A stretch of 64,000 nt of DNA. Source: an uncultured Bacteroidota bacterium. Its GTDB lineage: Bacteria > Bacteroidota > Bacteroidia > Flavobacteriales > Schleiferiaceae. This document shows, one piece after another, positions 18,560 through 30,990 of the stretch (position 1 is the first letter of the stretch; every line of letters begins with the position of its first letter). The DNA lies in NCBI GenBank assembly GCA_913057235.1, contig CAJXNI010000012.1:1-64000 (forward strand), given 5' to 3'. The notes under the pieces are model-generated. The model did no database searches. It saw nothing but the letters and a program-made list of their open reading frames with translations, and was not told where the DNA came from. The position numbers and the translations under genes are program-made.

Positions 18560-20278
18560 CTAAGCCTGACCTTTAGAGCTCTTTAAAGAACTGCTTATGC
18601 TGGCGGCATGGTCGGCAATGCGCTCCAGCTCTGCCAATAAATCACTGTAATACAAACCGCTTTGAATGCGGTATTTACCTTTTTCCACCTTAGCGATGTA
18701 CTCTGCCCTAAACTGCTGAAAGGTCTCATTTACGTCACGCTCTAATTTGCGAGCCTCTTCAAAATCAGCTTCTCCCTCTTGACTTTCCAAATTGCGCACC
18801 ATTTGGTCCAGGCAGCGTGCTACTTTCTCAGCGAGTTGAATCACCTTGGTGCGCATATCTGGCGTGAAATAAGCCTTTTGTTCTTTGCGGGTGGTGAGGT
18901 TTCGGCTTACTTCCAAGTAGATATCTCCTATGCGTTCTAAATAGTTAGCAATATGTAACATAGTGCGCACTCTTTGGCTGCCCAGGGTGCTTAGTTCGGC
19001 CCGGCTGGCCTCACTCAGATAATTTGAAATCTCCATTTCCATGCGATCGGAAATGTCTTCATACTTCTGAAGCTTGAGGGTATACTGCTTGAGTTTCTTT
19101 TCCTCCATTTCAGTAATAAGCATGGGGATGTACTTAAAGGCTCTGCGCATTAAGTCAGCAAATTTCACCAACTCTTTACGGGCCTCTACTAAGGAAAGCT
19201 CTGGCGTAGCCATTAAACCACTACCAATGTAATCAAGACTAAACTCCTCATCTTCTGAGCCCTTGGAAGGTACCATCAAGATAGCCAACTTGGCAATAAA
19301 TGCGGTAAAGCTGAAAAATATGAGCAAGTTAAACAGGTTAAAAGAGGTGTGGAATAAGCTTAGGGAAAGGGGTATAACGGAGGCGCTTTCATAAGGATTG
19401 GCGCCAAAAAGCCATTGCGAGCTACTGGCAATCAGATTCAAAAAAGGGGGCAATAAAAACAGTGACCAGAGTACGCCTAAAACATTAAAAATAAAGTGCG
19501 CCCGGGCCGAGCGCTTGGCGTGCACATTTCCAATTACCGCTGCTAAATTGGCGGTTACGGTGGTGCCGATATTTTCACCCAATACAATAGCGGCCGCCAG
19601 CGGAAAGCTAATCCACCCTTCACTAGTGAGAATTATGGTAAAGGCAATGGCGGCACTGGAAGACTGCACCATAATGGTCATTAACGCACCCACCAAAATA
19701 AATACAGCCGCTATGCCCAGCTTGGCCAGGTAGCTCTTTCCGCTGTAGCTATAATCTTTTAAGAAGCTTAGCAATTCTTTATGCTCCTGCAGGTCTGGCA
19801 GGGCATCACGCATGAGGGTAAGACCTAATAGTAAGAGGGCAAAGCCTATGAGTACTTCGGCCCAGAGCTTCACTCGCTCACGCGGTATAAATATCAGCGG
19901 AAGCGAAATGGCCAGAAGCGGAAGAATAAGCAGGCTGAGCGAAAGCTTGCCGTTATCTACCAAGGCTACCAACCAAGCAGTAACGGTAGTTCCTAGGTTG
20001 GCGCCCATAATAACGCCAATAGACTCTATGAGACTAATTAAACCGGCATTTACAAAACTTACCACCATTACCGTGGTAGCACTGGAAGACTGCAGCAGCA
20101 CCGTTATAAGCAAACCGGTTACCACTCCCACAGATTTACGGGCAGTCATGGCATTGAGGGCTTTACGCAAGCGGGTACCGGCTACTTTTTGAATGGCCTC
20201 GCTCATTACCTTCATACCGTAAATGAACAAGCCCAAAGAGCCAATAATTGCCACAATATTTAAAATGCCTTCACCCAT
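18560..20278 (-). CDS. Na/Pi cotransporter family protein with C-terminal PhoU-like domain
   Basis: 572 aa. About nine TM segments in the first ~340 residues, with the internally duplicated motif QSSSATTVMVVSF (near residue 63) and QSSSAAIAFTIIL (near residue 205), the mark of the NptA/PF02690 family. The last ~200 residues form a helical PhoU-like domain. It takes up inorganic phosphate with sodium, and the PhoU-like tail may regulate it. It lies at the end of the candidate phosphate locus; a terminator-like hairpin separates it from the T9SS gene upstream, and I saw no 11-bp Pho-type repeat in front of it, so its regulation may differ from its neighbours. Confidence 0.88.
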   Translation of the reverse strand: MGEGILNIVAIIGSLGLFIYGMKVMSEAIQKVAGTRLRKALNAMTARKSVGVVTGLLITVLLQSSSATTVMVVSFVNAGLISLIESIGVIMGANLGTTVTAWLVALVDNGKLSLSLLILPLLAISLPLIFIPRERVKLWAEVLIGFALLLLGLTLMRDALPDLQEHKELLSFLKDYSYSGKSYLAKLGIAAVFILVGALMTIMVQSSSAAIAFTIILTSEGWISFPLAAAIVLGENIGTTVTANLAAVIGNVHAKRSARAHFIFNVLGVLWSLFLLPPFLNLIASSSQWLFGANPYESASVIPLSLSLFHTSFNLFNLLIFFSFTAFIAKLAILMVPSKGSEDEEFSLDYIGSGLMATPELSLVEARKELVKFADLMRRAFKYIPMLITEMEEKKLKQYTLKLQKYEDISDRMEMEISNYLSEASRAELSTLGSQRVRTMLHIANYLERIGDIYLEVSRNLTTRKEQKAYFTPDMRTKVIQLAEKVARCLDQMVRNLESQEGEADFEEARKLERDVNETFQQFRAEYIAKVEKGKYRIQSGLYYSDLLAELERIADHAASISSSLKSSKGQA

Positions 20279-20368: not shown

Positions 20369-23300
20369 TTATTTCACCACTAGCTTTTGGCTAGCCGTTC
20401 TTCCATCAACCGTAAGGTTTACAAAATATACACCCGGTGCTAAATCAGCTACACTTACCTGCATGGTAGCGGCTGTGCTGCTGGCTTGCTTTACTACCTG
20501 ACCATTTACATTGGTAATGGTAAGCGCTTTGGACTGATTAGCATAACCTTCTACACTAAACAGCTTGGTAGCAGGATTTGGGTAAATGGTGAAATCTAAG
20601 GCCATAAACTCATTTACACTAAAGTCTGGTTGTAAGTTGCCGGGGCTGCCCACATCTCCGTTAAGAGATGTGTAAGCTCCATTTACTCCATCTGCCGAGC
20701 TGCCTAAAAGATTTCCGTCATTATCAAACTCCAATGAAAAACCAGCATTTACATCGGCTCCAGCATAAGCCACTGAAGAGATCAAACGTAGACCATCGTC
20801 ATAGAGGTTCACTTCATCGCCACCGCTGCTAAATCCAGAGAAACCGTTATCAAACTGGTTGCCTTCGTTCAGAACTACAAGAGGACCGTTGCTTTGGCCC
20901 CACTCAGCAATCCAAAGAGGTACATCGGCCGTAGCCGCTTCCAAGAGGATAATAGACTCACCGGCCGCAATACTTACACTGGTGGTAACGGTGTGGTTAC
21001 CAGCATCGCGACTTTCATCGTCCCAGCTAAAGTTTTGAATATCAATAGCGGTGCTTCCGGTATTGGTAACTTCAAACCAGTCGCCATCTATTGGGCTACC
21101 CAAGTTACTACTTGGCATTACCTCGGTAATGGAAAGCGTTGGAATGTCAATAGGAATGATGTCGTTGGTATCTCTAGGGAAGATTTGATAACCTTCATCG
21201 TAAGGGCTTGAGTTATCAAACTGACCGCCCACGCCAATCACGTCAAAATAAGCGGCTGGGGCCGGAGTACCATCTATTTCAGTGTCACGATCAATACGCA
21301 TTACCAAAGTGTCTTGACCGTTGGTGATATCAATGTTGGCATTGCTACCCGCTATTAGCGGCCATTGGTTAGGGTCAGCCAGGTAAAAACCGTTTAAACG
21401 GATGAGTTCACTCTCGGTAGTTTCATCAAGGTCAAAAACCTGAGTGACACTGGTGATTGGATTGCCCGTGCTAATAAGAGCCATAGAATCTGGAATGATC
21501 TCAGTAAGTCCGTTAAAGAAATCAATTTCACCAATCACTCGAATTGAGTCGCCAATGGTAGGCATGGTATAGCCCGGTACATCATTAAAGTTAAACACGT
21601 TGATACCCCCGGTACCATCGTGAATGTAAAAACTATACCCTGCGTTGGAATCAAAGTCAATGGTGAAAACGGTACCCAATACCTTGCAATAGGTATTCAG
21701 TGAATCGGGCTCACCGTTGGCATCATTGGTAGTAACGGCCGCAATGGGGTAGGTAGGTATAATTTGGTCATTGTCTTGAACTATAAACTGATGGTTTAGG
21801 GTATTGCCCAAGGTTAAATTAGCCGAAGTACCCACAATGTCTACAAAAAGGGTTTCGTTACCTTCCATAATGGCATCGTCTACAATAGAGATCACAAAAC
21901 CAGTAGAATCTTCGTTAGCCGGAACCACTAATTCAAATAAACCGGTGGTTAAATTGGGCAAAGGCGTAATGGTTCCATCACCAGGAATGGTCACATTAGC
22001 ACCCAATGTAGCTTGCAAGAACACGGTGTCTTGGGTGGTGCTAGCCGGGTTTATTGACAAACTTACTGTAACACTGCCCGCATCTTCCAGAACCGTTATA
22101 GAAGCCGCGTCAAAGTCTACTTCTGGGGTAGTGGGTACCACACAGTTAGAAGTGTGACCGCCTAAAAAGCTAAAGGTATTGCTGGGATTTACGGTCCATT
22201 GGGTAGCGCCTACACTCCAGTCTGTAGTACCGTTGGTTACTGATGCATTACGCACCAAGGTGTGGTTTTGGGTAGAGCCACTGCCCACGGTCCAAGAGGA
22301 TCCAGGGTCTTGCCCTACAACCCCTATGATATCTAAGGTGTCACCGGTAACGGTATCCATTAAAAACAAGGCGTCATCACCATTAAAGTGTGCCACGCTG
22401 GGGAATGAAAGAGCGGTATCGGCTACAGCCAACATAGTAGGATCAGCTTGGTCTGTTGTAATGGTATACACCGCACCTGAGGCAAGCAGACCGGTAAGGT
22501 TAAAGCTATTGGTGAAGCTACCTCCGTTTCCGGAAAGCATTACTTGATAAGGACCTAGGTCTAAGGGAGTAGCAGTGGGATTGTAAATCTCAAACCCTTT
22601 GTTTTGACTGCTTCCTTCAATGTATTCACTGAAAAAAGGCTGCGAACAGGGAGGCGTTACACAAACGGAAACGTGACTGCCTAAAAAGCTGAAAGTGTTG
22701 CTGGCGTTTACCGTCCATTGGGTGCTGGCAATACTCCAGTCTGTTTCACCCATAGTCACAGTGGCATTGCGCACTAAAGTGTGGTTTTGAGTAGATCCGC
22801 TTCCAACGGTCCAGGATGAACCAGGATCCTGACCTACAATCCCGATGATATCTAATGTGTCTCCAGTTACGGTGTCCATTAGAAATAAAGCATCATCACC
22901 ATTGAAGTGCGCCACACTGGGAAAAGAGAGAGCTGTATCGGCTACAGCCAACATTAAGGGGTCTGCTTGGTCTGTAGTTACGGTGTAAACCGCACCAGAA
23001 GCTATAGTACCACTTAAATCAAAGCTATTGGTGAAACTACCTCCGTTACCGGAAAGCATTACTCGGTAGGTACTCAAATCCAAAGGACCTGAAGTAGGGT
23101 TGTAAATTTCAAAACCTTTGTTTTGACTGCTACCTTCAATATACTCGCTAAAGTAAGGTTGCGAGCAAGGCGTGCTGATGGAAACGGCATTTACCGTAAT
23201 GCTGCCAACCATGCCTAAACCAGCATGCGGATCACACTGGTAGTCATAGGTACCGGGTGTGTTGAAAATGAACTGGTAGGTCCACATACCGCTGGCGGCC

Positions 23301-23524
23301 GAACCATTGGTAAATGATACCGGGTTGTTTGGAAAGGTAGCAATAGAACCATTCACATTGTGGAATCCACTCATGTTGGTCCAGATCACCGTATCGCCTT
23401 GATTGATGGTTAAAGACGAAGGCGTATACACGTTAGAGGTTACCGACACATTGTGCACGGTTGCCCAGGCAGAGCTTAGGGCTGCTGCCAATAAAAGAGT
23501 TGCAAAGCGTAGTCTGTTCTTCAT
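20369..23524 (-). CDS. Large T9SS-secreted protein: cupredoxin, lamin-tail, Calx-beta and OB-fold modules
   Basis: 1051 aa with a signal peptide (~1-21). Residues ~24-112 form a plastocyanin-like cupredoxin with type 1 copper ligands His55, Cys97, His100 and Met105 in order. Two near-identical lamin-tail-like modules occupy ~120-288 and ~293-461. A Calx-beta domain (~468-585) is followed by OB-fold-like domains (~603-785, with GYSFYIHDGTGGINVF and GDSIRVIGEI) that resemble those beside the nuclease in ExeM/YhcR-type secreted nucleases. A third lamin-tail domain lies at ~797-960, then a T9SS type A sorting domain (~977-1051, YPNPATKLF). No nuclease or phosphatase domain is visible. A candidate Pho-type box sits upstream. 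Exported and probably surface-attached; a role in phosphate acquisition or adhesion is inference. Confidence 0.85.
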   Translation of the reverse strand: MKNRLRFATLLLAAALSSAWATVHNVSVTSNVYTPSSLTINQGDTVIWTNMSGFHNVNGSIATFPNNPVSFTNGSAASGMWTYQFIFNTPGTYDYQCDPHAGLGMVGSITVNAVSISTPCSQPYFSEYIEGSSQNKGFEIYNPTSGPLDLSTYRVMLSGNGGSFTNSFDLSGTIASGAVYTVTTDQADPLMLAVADTALSFPSVAHFNGDDALFLMDTVTGDTLDIIGIVGQDPGSSWTVGSGSTQNHTLVRNATVTMGETDWSIASTQWTVNASNTFSFLGSHVSVCVTPPCSQPFFSEYIEGSSQNKGFEIYNPTATPLDLGPYQVMLSGNGGSFTNSFNLTGLLASGAVYTITTDQADPTMLAVADTALSFPSVAHFNGDDALFLMDTVTGDTLDIIGVVGQDPGSSWTVGSGSTQNHTLVRNASVTNGTTDWSVGATQWTVNPSNTFSFLGGHTSNCVVPTTPEVDFDAASITVLEDAGSVTVSLSINPASTTQDTVFLQATLGANVTIPGDGTITPLPNLTTGLFELVVPANEDSTGFVISIVDDAIMEGNETLFVDIVGTSANLTLGNTLNHQFIVQDNDQIIPTYPIAAVTTNDANGEPDSLNTYCKVLGTVFTIDFDSNAGYSFYIHDGTGGINVFNFNDVPGYTMPTIGDSIRVIGEIDFFNGLTEIIPDSMALISTGNPITSVTQVFDLDETTESELIRLNGFYLADPNQWPLIAGSNANIDITNGQDTLVMRIDRDTEIDGTPAPAAYFDVIGVGGQFDNSSPYDEGYQIFPRDTNDIIPIDIPTLSITEVMPSSNLGSPIDGDWFEVTNTGSTAIDIQNFSWDDESRDAGNHTVTTSVSIAAGESIILLEAATADVPLWIAEWGQSNGPLVVLNEGNQFDNGFSGFSSGGDEVNLYDDGLRLISSVAYAGADVNAGFSLEFDNDGNLLGSSADGVNGAYTSLNGDVGSPGNLQPDFSVNEFMALDFTIYPNPATKLFSVEGYANQSKALTITNVNGQVVKQASSTAATMQVSVADLAPGVYFVNLTVDGRTASQKLVVK
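22142..23167 (-). repeat. Tandem duplication of a lamin-tail-like module within the T9SS gene
   Basis: Two copies, 22661-23167 and 22142-22648, with a 519-base period (173 residues). The proteins are nearly identical over long stretches (for example FPSVAHFNGDDALFLMD in both), while the DNA differs at many third positions. This shows an old duplication held under protein-level constraint rather than a fresh copy. Confidence 0.85.
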
Positions 23525-23584
23525 TTTATTTGAATTTTTGATCTGCGAAAGTATAGTTTAACGCACTATTTAATTGCTTAACCG

Positions 23585-23601
23585 GGTAAAGCCCATGTTA
23601 A
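23585..23601 (-). promoter_or_regulatory. Candidate Pho-type box upstream of the large T9SS gene
   Basis: On the minus strand: TTAACA, five bases, TTTACC, an 11-bp direct repeat of the kind bound by PhoB/PhoP-type OmpR-family regulators (B. subtilis PhoP boxes are TTAACA-like with 11-bp spacing). A near-consensus -7 element (TACTTTCG, 23546-23553) lies downstream, ahead of the ATG at 23524. One of the two half-sites is imperfect. Confidence 0.45.
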
Positions 23602-23662
23602 GTTTGCAAAGATAGCACAGTAAACCAAGTTTTAGGCACTTAGTTTACTGAACTTTAATTGA

Positions 23663-26587
23663 TTAAAAACGGTAGCTGTAACTGATGGAAGCTTGAATAC
23701 CGGGTTCCCATTGCGAGAATATCTGATCTTGCGCCTGAAAGCCCACAAAAAAGCTTTCGCGAACATCGTTTAAAAGGTTCGCTACTTTCAGGCTTACGGT
23801 TTGGTTGTATTCTTCACCAAAACTAAAGCTACCGCTAACGTTCAAGCTGTGAAACATCTCGGTGTACACATCGGGGAATAAGCCCCCGCCTACAACTTCC
23901 AGGGTTCTACCTTTTACATTGTAGAAGGCTCCAATATTGTATTGCTTGCGCGGATTATCATAAATAAGACCCGCGTTTACCACATAAGGCGCCTGACCGG
24001 CCATGTCTCGCGTGTTTTCAACATTTTGCCCTACCTTCTCGTAGCGCTTGCGTGCGCTAAACTCCACCTCGGTCATATCAATTTGCGAATACACGTAGGT
24101 GAAATTACCGCTGAAAGAGAGGTTTTTAACGGCCTCGTTAATAAATCCCAGGCCTTTCGTGATTTCAAACTCGGCACCATACACCAAACCATCACCCACG
24201 TTACGGGGCTGAAACTCAGGGGTAGTTTGCGCTTCTGGAATACGCACCAATTCAATAGGGTCATTAAACGTTTTTACAAAGGCCGTTACTGAAATAATCT
24301 CACCCGGGTCCATGAAATACTCCCAGCGGAGGTCCATGTTGTTGATGCGGGTCTCGGTAAGATCACCTGCCCAAGAGCCTGGATACGGAAACAAGCCTCC
24401 GTTAAAGGTACGGTTGGTGGTAGGGTCTAAAATTTGGGCAAATGACAACTCCTTGAAAGAAGGACGGGCAATGGAGCGGAAATATGAAGCTCTTAAATTC
24501 TGGTTCTCATCAATCATATACACCAGGTTGGCACTGGGGAAAAGGTCTAAGGAGTTCAGCACCACGTCATTGTCTAAGGCGTCTTCCAAATCATCCGGAT
24601 CTGCCCCCTGCCCAATTTGCACGGCTGCGGTACCACTTCGACCGGTATGGCGTTGCACAAAATACTCTGCCCGCAAACCTATAATGGCCTTAAATCCTAA
24701 AACCGGAGTAAACTCATAGGAGGTGTAAGCCCCTAAATTATTGTTGTTAGATGAATACTGATTGGCATTGGGCGTACCAAACTGCTCTTGGTAGTACAGT
24801 GTCCCGTCCGGGAAGTAACGATCGCTAATTAAGACCTGGTTAGGGTCTCCTGAAAAATCGGGCTGCGACCCAAAGAATTGTAAGTCATAGTCTAAAATCT
24901 CGTAATCACGGTTTTTAAACACGTTGCTCAAACCAAATTTGAGCTTGGCCTCCCGTTCAAACAACTCCATATTACGCGTTACGTCAACCTTGCCTACGGC
25001 ATTAATTTCATCAAGGGTACGCCAGATTCTTTTGGGGTTACCCCCCTGGCCGGGGGCAAAAATAGAATCTCCGGTGGCGGCATCTATAGTAAAGGGAGTT
25101 CTACGCAAATCGGGCTCCACTATATTGGAAAGGGTGGGCGATACTTTCCACTCCACGTCCCATTTTTCATCTACCGAGTGGTGCTCACCAGCCAGCAATA
25201 AATTGGTAATCCCCCGCTGGTAGAATTCCAGGTTATTCACAAAAGCACGGTACCCTGAGGCGCCCACGGCAGCACCATCTTCATTATTATCAATGGCAAA
25301 TTGCGAAGCTACAGACTCTCCATTCTGCAAGTGCATTAGCGTTACGCGGTATTTGGATAATCCCGTTTTGTAGCTAAATCCGGCCAGACCGCCTAAAAGA
25401 ACATTGCGGCTGGCTTCTACCCCACGCTGAATGTTGGTATAAATTAACTCTGTGTCAATGGAATCTTTTGGACGGATGTATTCACCGTAAGTAACGTTAT
25501 CAAAAAACTCGGTTTCATTGCGGTAGGTAGCTGAAAAAATGTAAGCCCATTTGTCGCCATTTACTGTTGTGTACTGGTTACCCATAGATAGGCCCAGGTT
25601 AAAGTCCATTAAGCTGGTGTTTTGAGTAGCCCCAAGAGTGGTGTTAAAACTGCGCATGAAGTTGTTGATGTCATCATTGCTGTAAACATTAGGCGCCAAT
25701 GGGCTGGGAATAGGCGCAGACTCTGCACCGTCTGGTAAGGCCCTGGCGCCACCGTCAAAGCCTAAAGCATCGGTACCGGAACCGTCATAACTAATGTAGT
25801 TAGAGTTGAAGTGCATGTTGGGATTGTAACCCACACCGGCCGATACCTTAAATATTTTATTGGTAGGAAAGTCTTTAGTTTCAATATTCACCAATCCTCC
25901 GGCAAAATCAGCGGGCAACTCCGCCAAACCGGTTTTTAGGATGGTCATGTTGGATATTAGATTGGTTGGGAAAATGTCAATTTGAATGGCATTTCTATCA
26001 GGATCTAAGCCTGGAATATCTACCCCGTTTAACATGGTTTTGGTGTAGCGGTCTCCTAAACCCCGCACGTACACATATTTGCCACCTTCTACTGATACAC
26101 CGGTAACCCGCTTGGCCGCATCACCGGCATCGGAATCGCCAATTTTTTGGAGTTTGGCCGAAGAAATACCGTCAATCATGTTGGCCGATTTCCGCTTGGC
26201 GGTTACCATGGCCGCCTCGGTATTGCGCACCGCTTCAGCGGTAACCGTAACGGCACCCAGCTCATTAGTGGCGGGTTTCACCACAATATCGCCTACGGCT
26301 GTAACTTCACCTGCCTGCACTAATACTCCACTTACGGTAGTAGACTGCATCCCTATAAAAGAAATCTCTAAGTTGTAGGTACCGGGGTCTGCTTTAATTT
26401 CAAATAATCCATCAAAGTCTGTGGTGGCACCTTGAGTTGTTCCCTTAAGCACTGCGTTAGCAGCAAATAAAGGCTCTCCGGTTTCACCGTCAATAACCTT
26501 ACCTCTAACTGTACCTTTCTGAGCCTGTGCCCCAAAGGTTAAAAAAGCCGCTACTGCAAGAAAAAATAGCTTTGTGAAGTTAGACAT
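23663..26587 (-). CDS. TonB-dependent outer membrane receptor
   Basis: 974 aa from the ATG at 26587 (MSNFTKLFFLAVAAFLTFG..., a clear signal peptide); the frame runs on upstream without one. Residues ~25-105 form a carboxypeptidase-regulatory-like beta sandwich typical of Bacteroidota receptors. A plug domain follows (RVTGVSVEGGKYVYVRGLG, and LPADFAGGLVNIETKDFP), then a large C-terminal barrel ending in a terminal Phe (SISYSYRF). It is not paired with a SusD. It lies between the beta-helix lipoprotein gene (upstream on the same strand) and the large T9SS gene, next to phoB-phoR-like genes, so uptake of a phosphate-containing ligand is inferred. The hairpin at 26640-26672 stands between it and the lipoprotein gene. 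Confidence 0.92.
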   Translation of the reverse strand: MSNFTKLFFLAVAAFLTFGAQAQKGTVRGKVIDGETGEPLFAANAVLKGTTQGATTDFDGLFEIKADPGTYNLEISFIGMQSTTVSGVLVQAGEVTAVGDIVVKPATNELGAVTVTAEAVRNTEAAMVTAKRKSANMIDGISSAKLQKIGDSDAGDAAKRVTGVSVEGGKYVYVRGLGDRYTKTMLNGVDIPGLDPDRNAIQIDIFPTNLISNMTILKTGLAELPADFAGGLVNIETKDFPTNKIFKVSAGVGYNPNMHFNSNYISYDGSGTDALGFDGGARALPDGAESAPIPSPLAPNVYSNDDINNFMRSFNTTLGATQNTSLMDFNLGLSMGNQYTTVNGDKWAYIFSATYRNETEFFDNVTYGEYIRPKDSIDTELIYTNIQRGVEASRNVLLGGLAGFSYKTGLSKYRVTLMHLQNGESVASQFAIDNNEDGAAVGASGYRAFVNNLEFYQRGITNLLLAGEHHSVDEKWDVEWKVSPTLSNIVEPDLRRTPFTIDAATGDSIFAPGQGGNPKRIWRTLDEINAVGKVDVTRNMELFEREAKLKFGLSNVFKNRDYEILDYDLQFFGSQPDFSGDPNQVLISDRYFPDGTLYYQEQFGTPNANQYSSNNNNLGAYTSYEFTPVLGFKAIIGLRAEYFVQRHTGRSGTAAVQIGQGADPDDLEDALDNDVVLNSLDLFPSANLVYMIDENQNLRASYFRSIARPSFKELSFAQILDPTTNRTFNGGLFPYPGSWAGDLTETRINNMDLRWEYFMDPGEIISVTAFVKTFNDPIELVRIPEAQTTPEFQPRNVGDGLVYGAEFEITKGLGFINEAVKNLSFSGNFTYVYSQIDMTEVEFSARKRYEKVGQNVENTRDMAGQAPYVVNAGLIYDNPRKQYNIGAFYNVKGRTLEVVGGGLFPDVYTEMFHSLNVSGSFSFGEEYNQTVSLKVANLLNDVRESFFVGFQAQDQIFSQWEPGIQASISYSYRF

Positions 26588-26639
26588 GATCTGTGCGTTT
26601 AAATGAAGAATTGAATGTGGCTTGTTTTGATAGACAAAA

Positions 26640-26694: not shown

Positions 26695-27933
26695 TTAGAG
26701 TCCAATAGTACCTAAGGCACCTGATTGTCTGGCCCAAGTCCAGCTAAAAGCACCTAGGTCTACGTTACCAGGAAGTGAAGATGCTTCCATGATAGCATTA
26801 GGCACATTATCATTTGGATTGAACATGTCAGCAAGAGACTGAGAACCTAACTCAATAGTAATGTTAGCGGTGTTGCAATTTTGATCACCACCCCAAGACT
26901 CAAAAGGATCAAACTCTTCGTCATCATCAGTAGTAGCAGGATCATCTGCAATGTATACGTAGTCATTCTGGATACCAAAGAAGTGAATGTTAGTAAGACC
27001 AGCATTGGTACCACCGTCCCAGTCAATTAGGTGATCAATGCCTCCACCAGCGTAAACCACACCGTTGTTGAAAGAGTGACATCCGCGGTTAATGTTGCCC
27101 TCAGGACCATCTAGTTCAAAGGCTGAACCACCATCAGGAGTTACCACTACAAAGTTTTCGCAAGTACCAATCCAGTCTTGATCAGTATCTAAAGCGTCAT
27201 CACCAGAGTTCCACACTAAGGCATTGGTAATATTTACATCACCACCGTACCACTCGATACCATCGTCTTGGTTAGCTACAACCTCAATGTTGTTAATGGT
27301 TGTACCAGAACCAACACCACCTAAAGAAAGACCGTTAATTTCATTACCCGCGCCAATGTTGGTACCACCGTGGCGAATAGATACGTAGGTGAACACACCT
27401 GAGCTGTGCGTATCTTCTGAACCTCCGTAAAGACCGTTGGCGTCAGAGGTAGGAATACCCTCAATTTGCACCTCTGGCTCAGAAGCAGAAATGGTAGCTT
27501 TTCCTAGAATAAGCACACCACCCCAAAGACCGTTGTTTTGAGGGTCCATGTTAGGGCTCTCAATTTCACCAGGCTGAATGTTATCAGCAACTGATGTAAA
27601 GATGATGGGCTCAGCAGCAGTACCTTCAGCCATGATCATACCTTCACGGGCAATCATAAGGGCAGAAGCAAACTGACCGGCTCCAGGAGCACCTTTAATA
27701 ATAGTACCGGGCTCAATGGTTAAGGTAGCGCCACCGGTTACGGTAACACGGCCATCTAAACGGTAAATATTATTGGCCGTCCAGGTTTCATCAGCGGTGA
27801 TTTCGCCTGTTACAGACACTACATTGGCTCCAGTAGAACCACCCCCGTTGTTGTTTTCTTCCTCATCATCGCATGAGGTTAATGCGAATACTGCCGCTGC
27901 GCTGTACAGTAAAAGTGATTTTAATTTTTTCAT
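26695..27933 (-). CDS. Secreted lipoprotein with right-handed beta-helix-like repeats
   Basis: 412 aa. The signal peptide ends in the lipobox ALTSC (Cys21) followed by an acidic, Asn/Gly-rich linker (~22-36). The body shows repeating strand-turn patterns such as GGATLTIEPGTIIKGAPG, NNIEVVANQDDGIEWYGGDVNITNALVWNSGDDALDT, consistent with a parallel beta-helix, with many Asp-rich loops that could bind calcium. No catalytic motif recognised. It is the first gene of the minus-strand group behind a candidate Pho-type box, and is followed by a terminator and then the TonB-dependent receptor, so it is probably the receptor's surface partner. Function inferred only from context. Confidence 0.72.
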   Translation of the reverse strand: MKKLKSLLLYSAAAVFALTSCDDEEENNNGGGSTGANVVSVTGEITADETWTANNIYRLDGRVTVTGGATLTIEPGTIIKGAPGAGQFASALMIAREGMIMAEGTAAEPIIFTSVADNIQPGEIESPNMDPQNNGLWGGVLILGKATISASEPEVQIEGIPTSDANGLYGGSEDTHSSGVFTYVSIRHGGTNIGAGNEINGLSLGGVGSGTTINNIEVVANQDDGIEWYGGDVNITNALVWNSGDDALDTDQDWIGTCENFVVVTPDGGSAFELDGPEGNINRGCHSFNNGVVYAGGGIDHLIDWDGGTNAGLTNIHFFGIQNDYVYIADDPATTDDDEEFDPFESWGGDQNCNTANITIELGSQSLADMFNPNDNVPNAIMEASSLPGNVDLGAFSWTWARQSGALGTIGL

Positions 27934-27985
27934 TGTAAAGTGAATTTGTGCGTTTTGAATTCGGGGGCAAAGAAAGAGCGGCCTT

Positions 27986-28002
27986 GTTAAGGAAGCGTTA
28001 AG
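27986..28002 (-). promoter_or_regulatory. Candidate Pho-type box of the lipoprotein/receptor operon
   Basis: On the minus strand: CTTAAC, five bases (GCTTC), CTTAAC, an exact 11-bp direct repeat. It lies 10 bases upstream of a near-consensus -7 element (TTTCTTTG, 27968-27975), so it covers the -35 region, the position expected for a PhoB-type activator. Confidence 0.6.
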
Positions 28003-28088
28003 TTAATTTAAACATTACTAAAGCCTTTTTAATCTCCGCCTAAATCAAAAGCCTGGCTCAAAAAAACTTAAAACCAGCAAAGTAGAGG

Positions 28089-28136
28089 TTAACAGGGGCT
28101 TAACATATTTAAAGCTGCATTAACCTTTTGTTAAGA
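28089..28136 (+). promoter_or_regulatory. Two tandem candidate Pho-type boxes upstream of the phoB-like gene
   Basis: 28089-28105 is TTAACA, GGGGC, TTAACA, an exact 11-bp repeat; 28120-28136 is TTAACC, TTTTG, TTAAGA, again 11-bp spaced. The two pairs are 31 bp apart, about three helical turns. A near-consensus -7 element (TATTTTTA, 28162-28169) follows. This is consistent with autoregulation by the adjacent response regulator. Confidence 0.6.
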
Positions 28137-28192
28137 CAGCTTCCTTCAAAAGCTTTAATACTATTTTTACCGCGCAGATAATTAAAAGCCCC

Positions 28193-28876
28193 ATGAAAAA
28201 CGGCAATTACACTTTATTACTGGTAGATGATGAACCCGATATTCTAGAGTTTGTAGGCTACAACCTCCGTAAAGAAGGTTTTAAGGTACTTACGGCCAAC
28301 AATGGTCAAGAGGGCCTAAAAATTGCCCGTAAGGAAAAACCTGAATTAATTCTCTTAGACGTAATGATGCCCGGCATGGATGGCATTGAAACGTGTGATG
28401 AAATCCGCAAGAGCTCAGATCTTGAAGATACGCTGATTGCCTTTTTAACTGCACGTGGCGAAGACTATTCACAAGTGGCAGGCTTTGATGCCGGAGCCGA
28501 TGATTACATTACCAAGCCTATAAAACCCAAGGTGCTTATCAGTCGCATTAAGGCACTTTTAAGGCGCTATGGGCAAAATAAAAAAGGGCGGTCTACGCAG
28601 GAATTTGGTGAGGTCAGCATAGACTTAGACAAGTACCAGGTTCGTTACCGCGATAAAAAATTAGATCTGCCGCGAAAAGAGTTTGAACTGCTCACCCTAC
28701 TCACCTCCCGCCCCGGCAAAGTTTTTCACCGCGATGAAATTCTGGACAAAATTTGGGGTAATGAAGTAGTGGTGGGTGGCCGCACCATTGATGTTCACAT
28801 CCGTAAGCTGCGGGAAAAAATTGGCGACCGTTACATTAAAACGGTAAAAGGGGTAGGTTATAAATTTGACGCATAA
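28193..28876 (+). CDS. phoB: OmpR/PhoB-family response regulator
   Basis: 227 aa. Receiver domain ~1-123: acidic pocket VDDEPD, phospho-acceptor Asp56 (LILLDVMMPG), then AFLTARGE and YITKPIK at the conserved Thr and Lys positions. The C-terminal winged helix (~130-227) has GGRTIDVHIRKLREKIGD and the final KTVKGVGYKF of OmpR-type regulators. It is followed by a histidine kinase after 15 bases and preceded by 11-bp-period repeats of the PhoP-box type. I give it the phoB name from this context: cofactor-free Pho control of the receptor, lipoprotein and T9SS genes is inference. A generic OmpR-type regulator is the alternative. Confidence 0.85.
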   Translation: MKNGNYTLLLVDDEPDILEFVGYNLRKEGFKVLTANNGQEGLKIARKEKPELILLDVMMPGMDGIETCDEIRKSSDLEDTLIAFLTARGEDYSQVAGFDAGADDYITKPIKPKVLISRIKALLRRYGQNKKGRSTQEFGEVSIDLDKYQVRYRDKKLDLPRKEFELLTLLTSRPGKVFHRDEILDKIWGNEVVVGGRTIDVHIRKLREKIGDRYIKTVKGVGYKFDA

Positions 28877-28891
28877 AGCTATCTTGCGCTT

Positions 28892-29938
28892 ATGCGTCTG
28901 GAAAAACCGCAAATAATTGCCCTCTCCCTCAGCACCTTTTTGGCTGTTTGCATCATAGGACTGCTAACTATCCTGCAGGTTTTCTTTCAAGTTCCGTTAG
29001 GGCCATTACTAATAGCCGGCACTGCTCTGGTCAGTTTCTTGATTTTTTTTTTCACCATCCGGTTTACCGTAGAAGAGTTTATTTACCAAAAGGTAAAACT
29101 CATTTACAAGAATATTCATGAGCTTAAAGTAGGCAGTGAAAATGAAGAGAACGAGGTGGTGCGCAGCAGCGATTTAGACATGGTTACCCGCGAGGTGGCC
29201 GAATGGGCCGATGAAAGACGCAACGAAATTAAAGAGTTACGCGCCCGTGAAGATTTCAGACGGGAATTCATTGGCAACATTTCCCATGAGCTAAAAACCC
29301 CCATATTCAACATTCAAGGTTACATGCTTACCTTGCTAGATGGGGCTTTGGATGATGAAGAAATCAATCGTAAATACCTTAAACGGGCCAACAAATCGGT
29401 AGATCGCATGATTGCCATTATTGACGATTTAGAAGTAATTGCTGACCTGGAGGGCAACCGCGTACAACTCAATTTAAAGCAGTACGACCTGGTGGAGCAG
29501 GTAGAAGATGTTTTTGAACTGCTGGAAGACAAGGCCAAAAAGAAACACATTAAACTAAAGTTAAAACCACTGGGCGATAAACCCGTGCGGGTGCAAGCCG
29601 ATCAAGCCAAAATTGAGCAAGTACTTATTAACCTAATTAGCAATGCCATTAAATACGGCAATGACAAGGGAAAAGTAGAAGTGGCCTTTTTTGATATGGC
29701 CGATAAATACCTCATTGAAGTAAATGACGATGGCCTGGGCATACCGGAGGAGGATTTACCCCGCGTTTTTGAACGATTTTACCGGGTAGATAAAAGCCGC
29801 TCGCGCGAAGCGGGGGGTACCGGCTTAGGACTCTCCATTGTAAAACACATATTAGAAGCGCACAAGCAGGCTATTAACGTACGAAGCAGTGAAGATGCAG
29901 GCTCAACCTTCTCTTTTACCCTCAAAAAGGCCAAATAA
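28892..29938 (+). CDS. phoR: PhoR-like sensor histidine kinase
   Basis: 348 aa. Two TM segments (~9-28 and ~37-55) with a very short loop, so no real periplasmic sensor domain, as in PhoR kinases that sense through partner proteins. HisKA H-box with His132 in GNISHELKTPIFNIQG; HATPase with the N-box VLINLISNAIKYG, G1 DDGLGIP, F-box VFERFYRVDKSRS and G2 GGTGLGLSIVKH. It lies 15 bases after the response regulator. Its last 36 bases overlap the convergent glycosyltransferase gene, which is unusual for two full-length coding genes. The Pho role is inferred from the neighbours. Confidence 0.85.
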   Translation: MRLEKPQIIALSLSTFLAVCIIGLLTILQVFFQVPLGPLLIAGTALVSFLIFFFTIRFTVEEFIYQKVKLIYKNIHELKVGSENEENEVVRSSDLDMVTREVAEWADERRNEIKELRAREDFRREFIGNISHELKTPIFNIQGYMLTLLDGALDDEEINRKYLKRANKSVDRMIAIIDDLEVIADLEGNRVQLNLKQYDLVEQVEDVFELLEDKAKKKHIKLKLKPLGDKPVRVQADQAKIEQVLINLISNAIKYGNDKGKVEVAFFDMADKYLIEVNDDGLGIPEEDLPRVFERFYRVDKSRSREAGGTGLGLSIVKHILEAHKQAINVRSSEDAGSTFSFTLKKAK

Positions 29939-30961
29939 TTTAGACCACTGATTATCCGGAGCAGGTTCTAAGAAGCGACCAGGCTTACGCAGTGCCTCCT
30001 CACACAAAGCTTTCAAATTCAAGGTGTTTTGCTGGCCTATGGCATATTTTGTTTGGTGAGTCTTGGCCAAAAACTCTTGCTCGCCCTGTCCGGGGGTGGG
30101 AATTAACACCGCCTTTGTTCCCAACGCGGCATAATCCATTATACTGCTATAGCCGCTGCGGCTAATCACCACCTGGGCGCGCTGCAATAGTTTTTGCAGG
30201 TCGGCACTGCTTAAACGGCCGTGTACGGTTATTGCCTCTTGGGGCGATGGTGTGGGGTTTTCCACACCAGTAACCAGGTGAAAACGAGGGCCCGGCCAGG
30301 CCTGCATAGCTGTGCGTATTGCCTGATCCAAGAGGGTCCTTTGTGGTTCTGGGCCACTTAAAATAGCCACAATCTCTCGTGTTCTAGTACCTGTTAGCCT
30401 GGTAAAGCGCGACAAGTTACCCGTAAACTGAAGCTTGTTTTTGCAGGAAATTGGGGCCTGACTAAGGCCAGCACTAAGCGTACGTTCCGGCCCATCTGGA
30501 ATCCATAGCGCTGAGAACTTTTGGTAATACCGTTGGTGCGCCCATCGCGCGAAAGCGGCACCGTACCTTACCGGTACCTGCAACTGGTGCGTAAGATAGG
30601 CGCTGGGCACCGCGGCATGAAAAAACCCCAGGCGATTATCTGAGATGAGGCCGGTAAAACCATGCCTTTTGTAAAACCGCGCCACCAGCTGATTTTCCTT
30701 TTGGGCTACGTAAGCCAACCTGGGCAACTGACTCAGTAATTTGGGCAACTGATGCCGGCCCCGCGCATACCGCACTTTGTAACCGGGCAGCCGCAAAACA
30801 CTTAGCTGCGGAAATTCCCCTTGCAACCATTCCAGCGCTTCACCGTCACTTGCCAAGGTGACTTCAAACCCATGTTGGAGAAGCTGGTCTATTATTGGTT
30901 TGCTGCGGGTGGCGTGCCCCAGACCCCAGTTTAAAACCCCGTATAAAATATGACCCTTCAT
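29903..30961 (-). CDS. GT-B glycosyltransferase-like protein
   Basis: 352 aa from the ATG at 30961, chosen because GHILYGVLNWGLGHATRSKPI, the N-terminal nucleotide-sugar glycosyltransferase pattern (GxGHATR), follows directly. The C-terminal half has RAQVVISRSGYSSIMDYAALGTKAVLIPTPGQGEQEF, the MurG/UGT-like donor-binding segment. This branch is often annotated as glycosyl transferase or conserved hypothetical. The acceptor is unknown. It is divergent from trmB (41 bases between start codons) and its 3' end overlaps the phoR-like gene by 36 bases. Confidence 0.82.
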   Translation of the reverse strand: MKGHILYGVLNWGLGHATRSKPIIDQLLQHGFEVTLASDGEALEWLQGEFPQLSVLRLPGYKVRYARGRHQLPKLLSQLPRLAYVAQKENQLVARFYKRHGFTGLISDNRLGFFHAAVPSAYLTHQLQVPVRYGAAFARWAHQRYYQKFSALWIPDGPERTLSAGLSQAPISCKNKLQFTGNLSRFTRLTGTRTREIVAILSGPEPQRTLLDQAIRTAMQAWPGPRFHLVTGVENPTPSPQEAITVHGRLSSADLQKLLQRAQVVISRSGYSSIMDYAALGTKAVLIPTPGQGEQEFLAKTHQTKYAIGQQNTLNLKALCEEALRKPGRFLEPAPDNQWSKLFGLFEGKREG

Positions 30962-30990
30962 AAAAGGCCAAGTTGCAGAAAACAATCCGT

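Follow-up and report, generated by a model that had tools for sequence, protein, structure and literature searches.

Candidate Pho boxes with TTAACA half-sites in the divergent phoB promoter region of a Schleiferiaceae bacterium and before phosphate genes of related Bacteroidota

Bacteroidota play a major part in phosphorus recycling in soils and in the sea, and their promoters carry a -7 element with the consensus TAnnTTTG. In Escherichia coli, the Pho box of PhoB is an 11-bp direct repeat of the half-site CTGTCA that stands in place of the -35 region. The PhoP box of Bacillus subtilis consists of TTAACA-like direct repeats with an 11-bp period. The half-site TGTTAA occurs in the 11-bp repeats of the E. 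coli ArcA box, and ArcA controls respiration genes.

The closest described gene cluster is that of Flavobacterium johnsoniae, which comprises a glycosyltransferase gene (Fjoh_0541), phoR (0543), phoB (0544) and the genes of a TonB receptor (0545) and of the lipoprotein FII (0546; PMC8115612). On phosphate depletion, the receptor and the lipoprotein are induced by log2 8–10, phoR hardly, and the lamin-tail (PF00932) nucleases EndA1 and EndA2 are induced as well (PMC8115612). The main text of that study gives no DNA-binding motif. PhoB of Bacteroides fragilis was shown by EMSA to bind the pstC promoter, with no motif in the text (PMC3547664). In Riemerella anatipestifer, DAP-seq of PhoP yielded an ArcA-like motif with the conserved core TTTAACA, which was also found at its own promoter. 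In the accessible part of that report (PMC9603813), PhoP is presented as a virulence/redox regulator, and no 11-bp consensus is linked with phosphate genes or promoter geometry. We found neither an earlier PhoB motif of Flavobacterium or Bacteroides nor a Bacteroidota Pho consensus with promoter geometry in the open-licence PMC papers searched.

We analysed a 64,000-nucleotide stretch (the window) from the genome of an uncultured member of the Schleiferiaceae. The locus studied is the Flavobacteriales PhoBR cluster, in which a TonB receptor and a lipoprotein gene face phoB, phoR and a glycosyltransferase gene. The phoB-like gene (28193-28876, plus strand) encodes a response regulator of the OmpR/PhoB family with Response_reg and Trans_reg_C domains. 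Its top NCBIfam models are two PhoB models, and it scores below the equivalog cut-offs of both (217 vs 296 bits for TIGR02154 and 211 vs 270 bits for NF053854). It is followed by a phoR-like sensor histidine kinase gene (28892-29938, plus), whose best models, PnpS and PhoR, are also below their cut-offs, and by a glycosyltransferase-like gene (29903-30985, minus), the counterpart of the lipid-remodelling gene of the F. johnsoniae phoBR cluster (PMC8115612). In most Flavobacteriaceae loci, the gene in the corresponding position is 35–40% identical to this glycosyltransferase-like gene. Divergent from phoBR lie the gene of a lipoprotein (26695-27933, minus), the probable counterpart of F. johnsoniae FII (PMC8115612), and that of a TonB-dependent receptor (23663-26590, minus); the order of these two is opposite to that in Flavobacterium. 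In the F. panici and F. potami loci the regulator, kinase, receptor, lipoprotein and glycosyltransferase genes also stand together. Further along the minus strand are the genes of a T9SS-sorted lamin-tail protein that in part resembles extracellular nucleases of the ExeM type (20369-23524), and of a Na+/Pi cotransporter-like protein whose C-terminus carries a PhoU domain (18560-20278). Synteny of the cotransporter gene with the lipoprotein gene is conserved, the two being ~8-10 kb apart in several relatives too. The F. johnsoniae PhoBR cluster (PUSIV) has the same gene set and is induced by phosphate depletion (PMC8115612), in agreement with the suggestion of the initial annotation that the genes on both sides of the promoter region fit phosphate control.

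The gap between the lipoprotein gene and the response-regulator gene is 259 bp long and contains three direct repeats with an 11-bp period, the period expected of a Pho box. All three are at the positions where they had first been noticed; for the third pair, the strand had to be corrected. Box 1 is the CTTAAC-N5-CTTAAC repeat of the lipoprotein promoter (CTTAACgcttcCTTAAC, 27986-28002, minus strand). Box 3, the distal box of phoB, is an exact TTAACA-N5-TTAACA repeat (TTAACAggggcTTAACA, 28089-28105, plus). The third pair had been placed on the plus strand (TTAACCttttgTTAAGA, 28120-28136). As the weight matrix described below gives 18.2 bits to the minus-strand reading (TTAACAaaaggTTAATG, TTAACA-N5-TTAATG, 28118-28134) and 8.0 bits to the plus-strand one, we read this pair on the minus strand as Box 2, the proximal box of phoB. 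Relatives of the same family keep the minus reading, and they keep Box 1 as well. An overlapping third half-site extends Box 1 by 11 bp further upstream (27994-28013, minus, 10.4 bits), and several relatives have such an extension too (19.0 and 13.6 bits in two of them). Against dinucleotide shuffles, the gap holds 8 TTAAC/GTTAA words where 1.45 are expected, and 2 exact pairs with an 11-bp period where 0.005 are expected; 2 such pairs were reached in 0 of 5000 shuffles. A chance origin of the three repeats is excluded. Putative -7 elements could be assigned to both promoters: TTTCTTTG (27968-27975, minus), of the Bacteroidota type TAnnTTTG, for the lipoprotein gene, and TATTTTTA (28162-28169, plus) for phoB, where most relatives have TACTTTTG.

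A 20-bp weight matrix was derived solely from 20 relatives of the family that share this divergent gene arrangement; the genome studied here did not contribute to it. Its consensus is [C/G]TTAACA-N4-[C/G]TTAA[C/T]A, with the half-site [C/G]TTAACA in place of the E. coli-type CTGTCA. When both strands of the window were scored, the top three sites were those of Box 3 (28088, plus, 20.5 bits), Box 1 (27983, minus, 19.3 bits) and Box 2 (28116, minus, 18.2 bits). In the 21 intergenic regions, TTAA pairs at exactly 11 bp occur 37 times, whereas shuffles give 1.1 and the next most frequent spacing reaches 17. An additional candidate box (CTTAACATGGGCTTTACCCG, 23583-23602, minus, 14.9 bits), the fifth best of the window, lies just upstream of the lamin-tail gene. 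The fourth best (15.8 bits) is a minus-strand site inside the phoB coding sequence (28544-28563).

The matrix was also applied to phoX and pitA, genes outside its training set, and the proposed enrichment before phosphate genes of relatives was observed. Upstream regions of phoX (PF05787) exceeded 10 bits in 10 of 13 cases, compared to 5% of 95 control genes (p = 6e-8), and the two strongest of these controls were pitA genes. Among the recognisable pitA genes, 20 of 26 had a site above 10 bits, in most cases between -50 and -74, and such sites were present even where the upstream DNA is 55–60% GC. The enrichment likewise held for phoB: the median score upstream of this gene in 58 Bacteroidota loci was 12.2 bits, compared to 4.1 bits for 353 other genes (p = 4e-16), the control genes being drawn partly from phosphate-gene neighbourhoods. 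Among the best 'controls' were in fact, from other Bacteroidota, pstS (22.6 bits), a Na/Pi symporter gene (22.3 bits) and pitA (19.9 bits), followed closely by porin and glycosyltransferase genes; the pstS, Na/Pi symporter and porin sites are single cases. In this genome, there is a site in the phoX/moxR gap (contig C4, 85434) and another before pitA (contig C6, 103291). The boxes thus recur before phosphate-uptake and phosphatase genes of the same and of related genomes, as Pho boxes should. The promoters of the Na/Pi symporters of the family, scored with the matrix, had no close box of their own, and no member of the PstS family PF12849 was found in this genome. Members of several further Flavobacteriales families retain the 11-bp repeat before phoB and some are without it; a good site was absent before the phoB orthologues of four loci.

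Two further observations were made among these promoters. The phoX gene and a moxR-type gene share a common promoter region with boxes (contig C4, ~85434), and this pairing recurs in relatives. In R. anatipestifer, moxR is among the EMSA-confirmed PhoP targets named in the accessible part of the report (PMC9603813), which suggests that phosphate control and the moxR/bat genes may be linked in a conserved way. Elsewhere in this genome (contig C9, 103867-103894), three tandem 11-bp half-sites, the best pair scoring 21.6 bits, precede the gene for a small secreted 122-aa protein.

The placement of the boxes relative to the predicted -7 elements was found to be fixed. The distance from the start of the lipoprotein box to the T[AT]nnTTTG element is 27 bp in 13 promoters of the family, which puts the box over the -33/-35 region, as had been claimed for this repeat. 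For the proximal phoB box, the distance to this element is 45-46 bp in 15 of the family's 21 promoters, and the two facing phoB boxes are a constant 28 bp apart, start to start, wherever both occur in relatives. In a pooled set of 1094 upstream regions, from which most phoB-type genes and lipoprotein loci of the family had been removed, strong sites were accompanied by TTTG at +31 (15 cases) or +42 (13 cases). These peaks, one helical turn apart, appear on the same (coding) strand only; the opposite strand gave 1 and 1 cases. The +31 cases include the window's own lipoprotein gene, one other family lipoprotein gene and four that apparently stem from a single Flavobacterium gene, one of the four entering the count twice; the peak remains when these are left out. 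Judged with predicted -7 elements, the boxes therefore lie at fixed positions over or just upstream of the -33 element, the local equivalent of the -35 region, and the +31/+42 geometry is the trace to be expected of an activator that would replace the -33 element.

We propose that the repeats are the operators (Pho boxes) of the PhoB-like regulator encoded at 28193-28876, and we give this whole explanation, activation and autoregulation included, a probability of about 0.88. Phosphorylated PhoB dimers would bind to two [C/G]TTAACA half-sites whose 11-bp spacing, one helical turn, would keep them on the same face of the DNA. At the lipoprotein–TonB operon, the box would stand in place of the -33 element and activate transcription under phosphate starvation in a class II-like manner, and the same may apply to pitA where a genome has the 31-bp geometry. 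The facing pair of boxes upstream of phoB would provide autoregulation, probably positive.

The sign of regulation is the least certain point of this proposal. The phoB-side pair could instead be a repressor site for negative autoregulation, the lipoprotein-side box being the activating one; this we regard as unlikely. In its favour, the phoB boxes point towards each other, and their distance upstream of the -7 element exceeds that of the lipoprotein box (45-46 compared to 27 bp). In addition, loss of PhoPR in an R. anatipestifer double mutant raised pstS mRNA 8-fold (PMC5399024), so that the sign may differ between lineages. However, phosphate depletion raised phoB ~8-fold (log2 3.06) in F. 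johnsoniae (PMC8115612), and the sites before phoB are located upstream of the -7 element, not on it.

Assignment of the boxes to this regulator, as opposed to another of its family, depends on its DNA-binding domain and on the nature of the targets. The genome encodes only two OmpR-type DNA-binding domains. The recognition helix of the PhoB-like protein, RTIDVHIRKLR, hardly differs from those of E. coli PhoB and ArcA, and it is invariant among aligned Bacteroidota PhoB-type regulators from Flavobacterium to Alistipes. The boxes also resemble those of E. coli PhoB in having an 11-bp repeat at the place of the -35 region, and differ in the half-site (CTGTCA in E. coli, TTAACA here). The likeness to the Bacillus PhoP box, pointed out in the initial annotation, extends to the half-site, the spacing, the OmpR-family regulator and the phosphate genes, whereas the phylum and the promoter type are different, the site here probably replacing a Bacteroidota -33 element. 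The half-site does not belong to PhoP alone, as TGTTAA of the ArcA box is the reverse complement of TTAACA and also occurs in 11-bp repeats; ArcA, in contrast, acts on respiration genes and has no phosphate link.

This shared half-site, together with the ArcA-like motif named in the accessible part of the R. anatipestifer report (PMC9603813), would be compatible with real operators of another regulator, of the ArcA type or an RprY-type OmpR protein, with phoB merely as one of its target genes. A TTAAC repeat (TTAACGCCACTTTAACA, 9.5 bits; contig C31, 9850) indeed immediately precedes the histidine kinase gene that is linked to this genome's only other OmpR-type regulator. The DNA-binding domain of this paralogue, however, has a different helix, paralogue promoters are without the site (maximum 10.8 bits among 21 upstream regions), and the targets found are phosphate genes, which makes such an assignment highly improbable and argues for the PhoB-like protein as the regulator.

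Two of the MAG contigs compared bear the names Chryseobacterium gleum and Actinomyces viscosus, which appear to be wrong judging by their regulators. The regulator of the former has at most 63% identity to anything in 298 genomes of the order, and that of the latter is 61% identical to the window's Bacteroidota PhoB. The contig labelled Chryseobacterium was considered as a representative of the Weeksellaceae and rejected, as it does not resemble one.

We examined the genome by pattern searches and in targeted stretches, the matrix being used on the stretches. The suggested genome search for TTAAC-N6-TTAAC returned 16 matches, compared to 11 for the reversed control. A genome-wide pattern search with up to one mismatch gave 57 compared to 35, likewise a modest excess. 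A composite pattern with the -7 element and two mismatches gave no genome-wide excess (113 vs 113 in the control), and the window-wide count with one mismatch was 10 where 8 are expected. As the short word by itself is not rare in the genome, the evidence must rest on conservation and context. It is extremely improbable that the boxes are AT-rich promoter sequence conserved by descent and bound by no regulator: AT-rich intergenic DNA often contains TTAA-rich words and the loose genome-wide counts equal the control, but such descent predicts neither enrichment before unrelated genes nor a fixed distance to the -7 element, whereas the matrix transfers to phoX and pitA, sites are present in GC-rich promoters, the 11-bp peak is sharp and the +31/+42 geometry is strand-specific.

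The proposal of a candidate Bacteroidota Pho box is therefore supported, with the correction that a PhoP motif of this kind had already been reported from R. anatipestifer (PMC9603813). As far as the accessible part of that report goes, the likeness is one of reported motif and targets: the species belongs to the same class (Flavobacteriia), its motif has the TTTAACA core, a site lies upstream of the regulator's own operon, and moxR is a target there while a box lies between phoX and moxR here. This kind of operator is thus already known; its consensus and its geometry across the Flavobacteriales seem to be new. With moderate confidence, we lean towards a single grammar, [C/G]TTAACA-N4-[C/G]TTAA[C/T]A with TTTG of the -7 element at +31 or +42, that may hold throughout the Flavobacteriales, reach into other Bacteroidota and suffice to predict Pho regulons, the phoX–moxR/bat link included; it would illustrate the mode of action of an OmpR-family activator on the unusual promoters of Bacteroidota.

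In the literature that we found, the mapping of the Bacteroidota Pho regulon comes mainly from expression and proteomic studies of a few species. Because the motif recurs at fixed promoter distances before phosphate genes, it could be used to predict phosphate-starvation genes. A tested consensus with its promoter geometry would allow the regulon to be read from genomes alone, and the boxes would show cleanly where an activator sits on the -33/-7 promoters of Bacteroidota.
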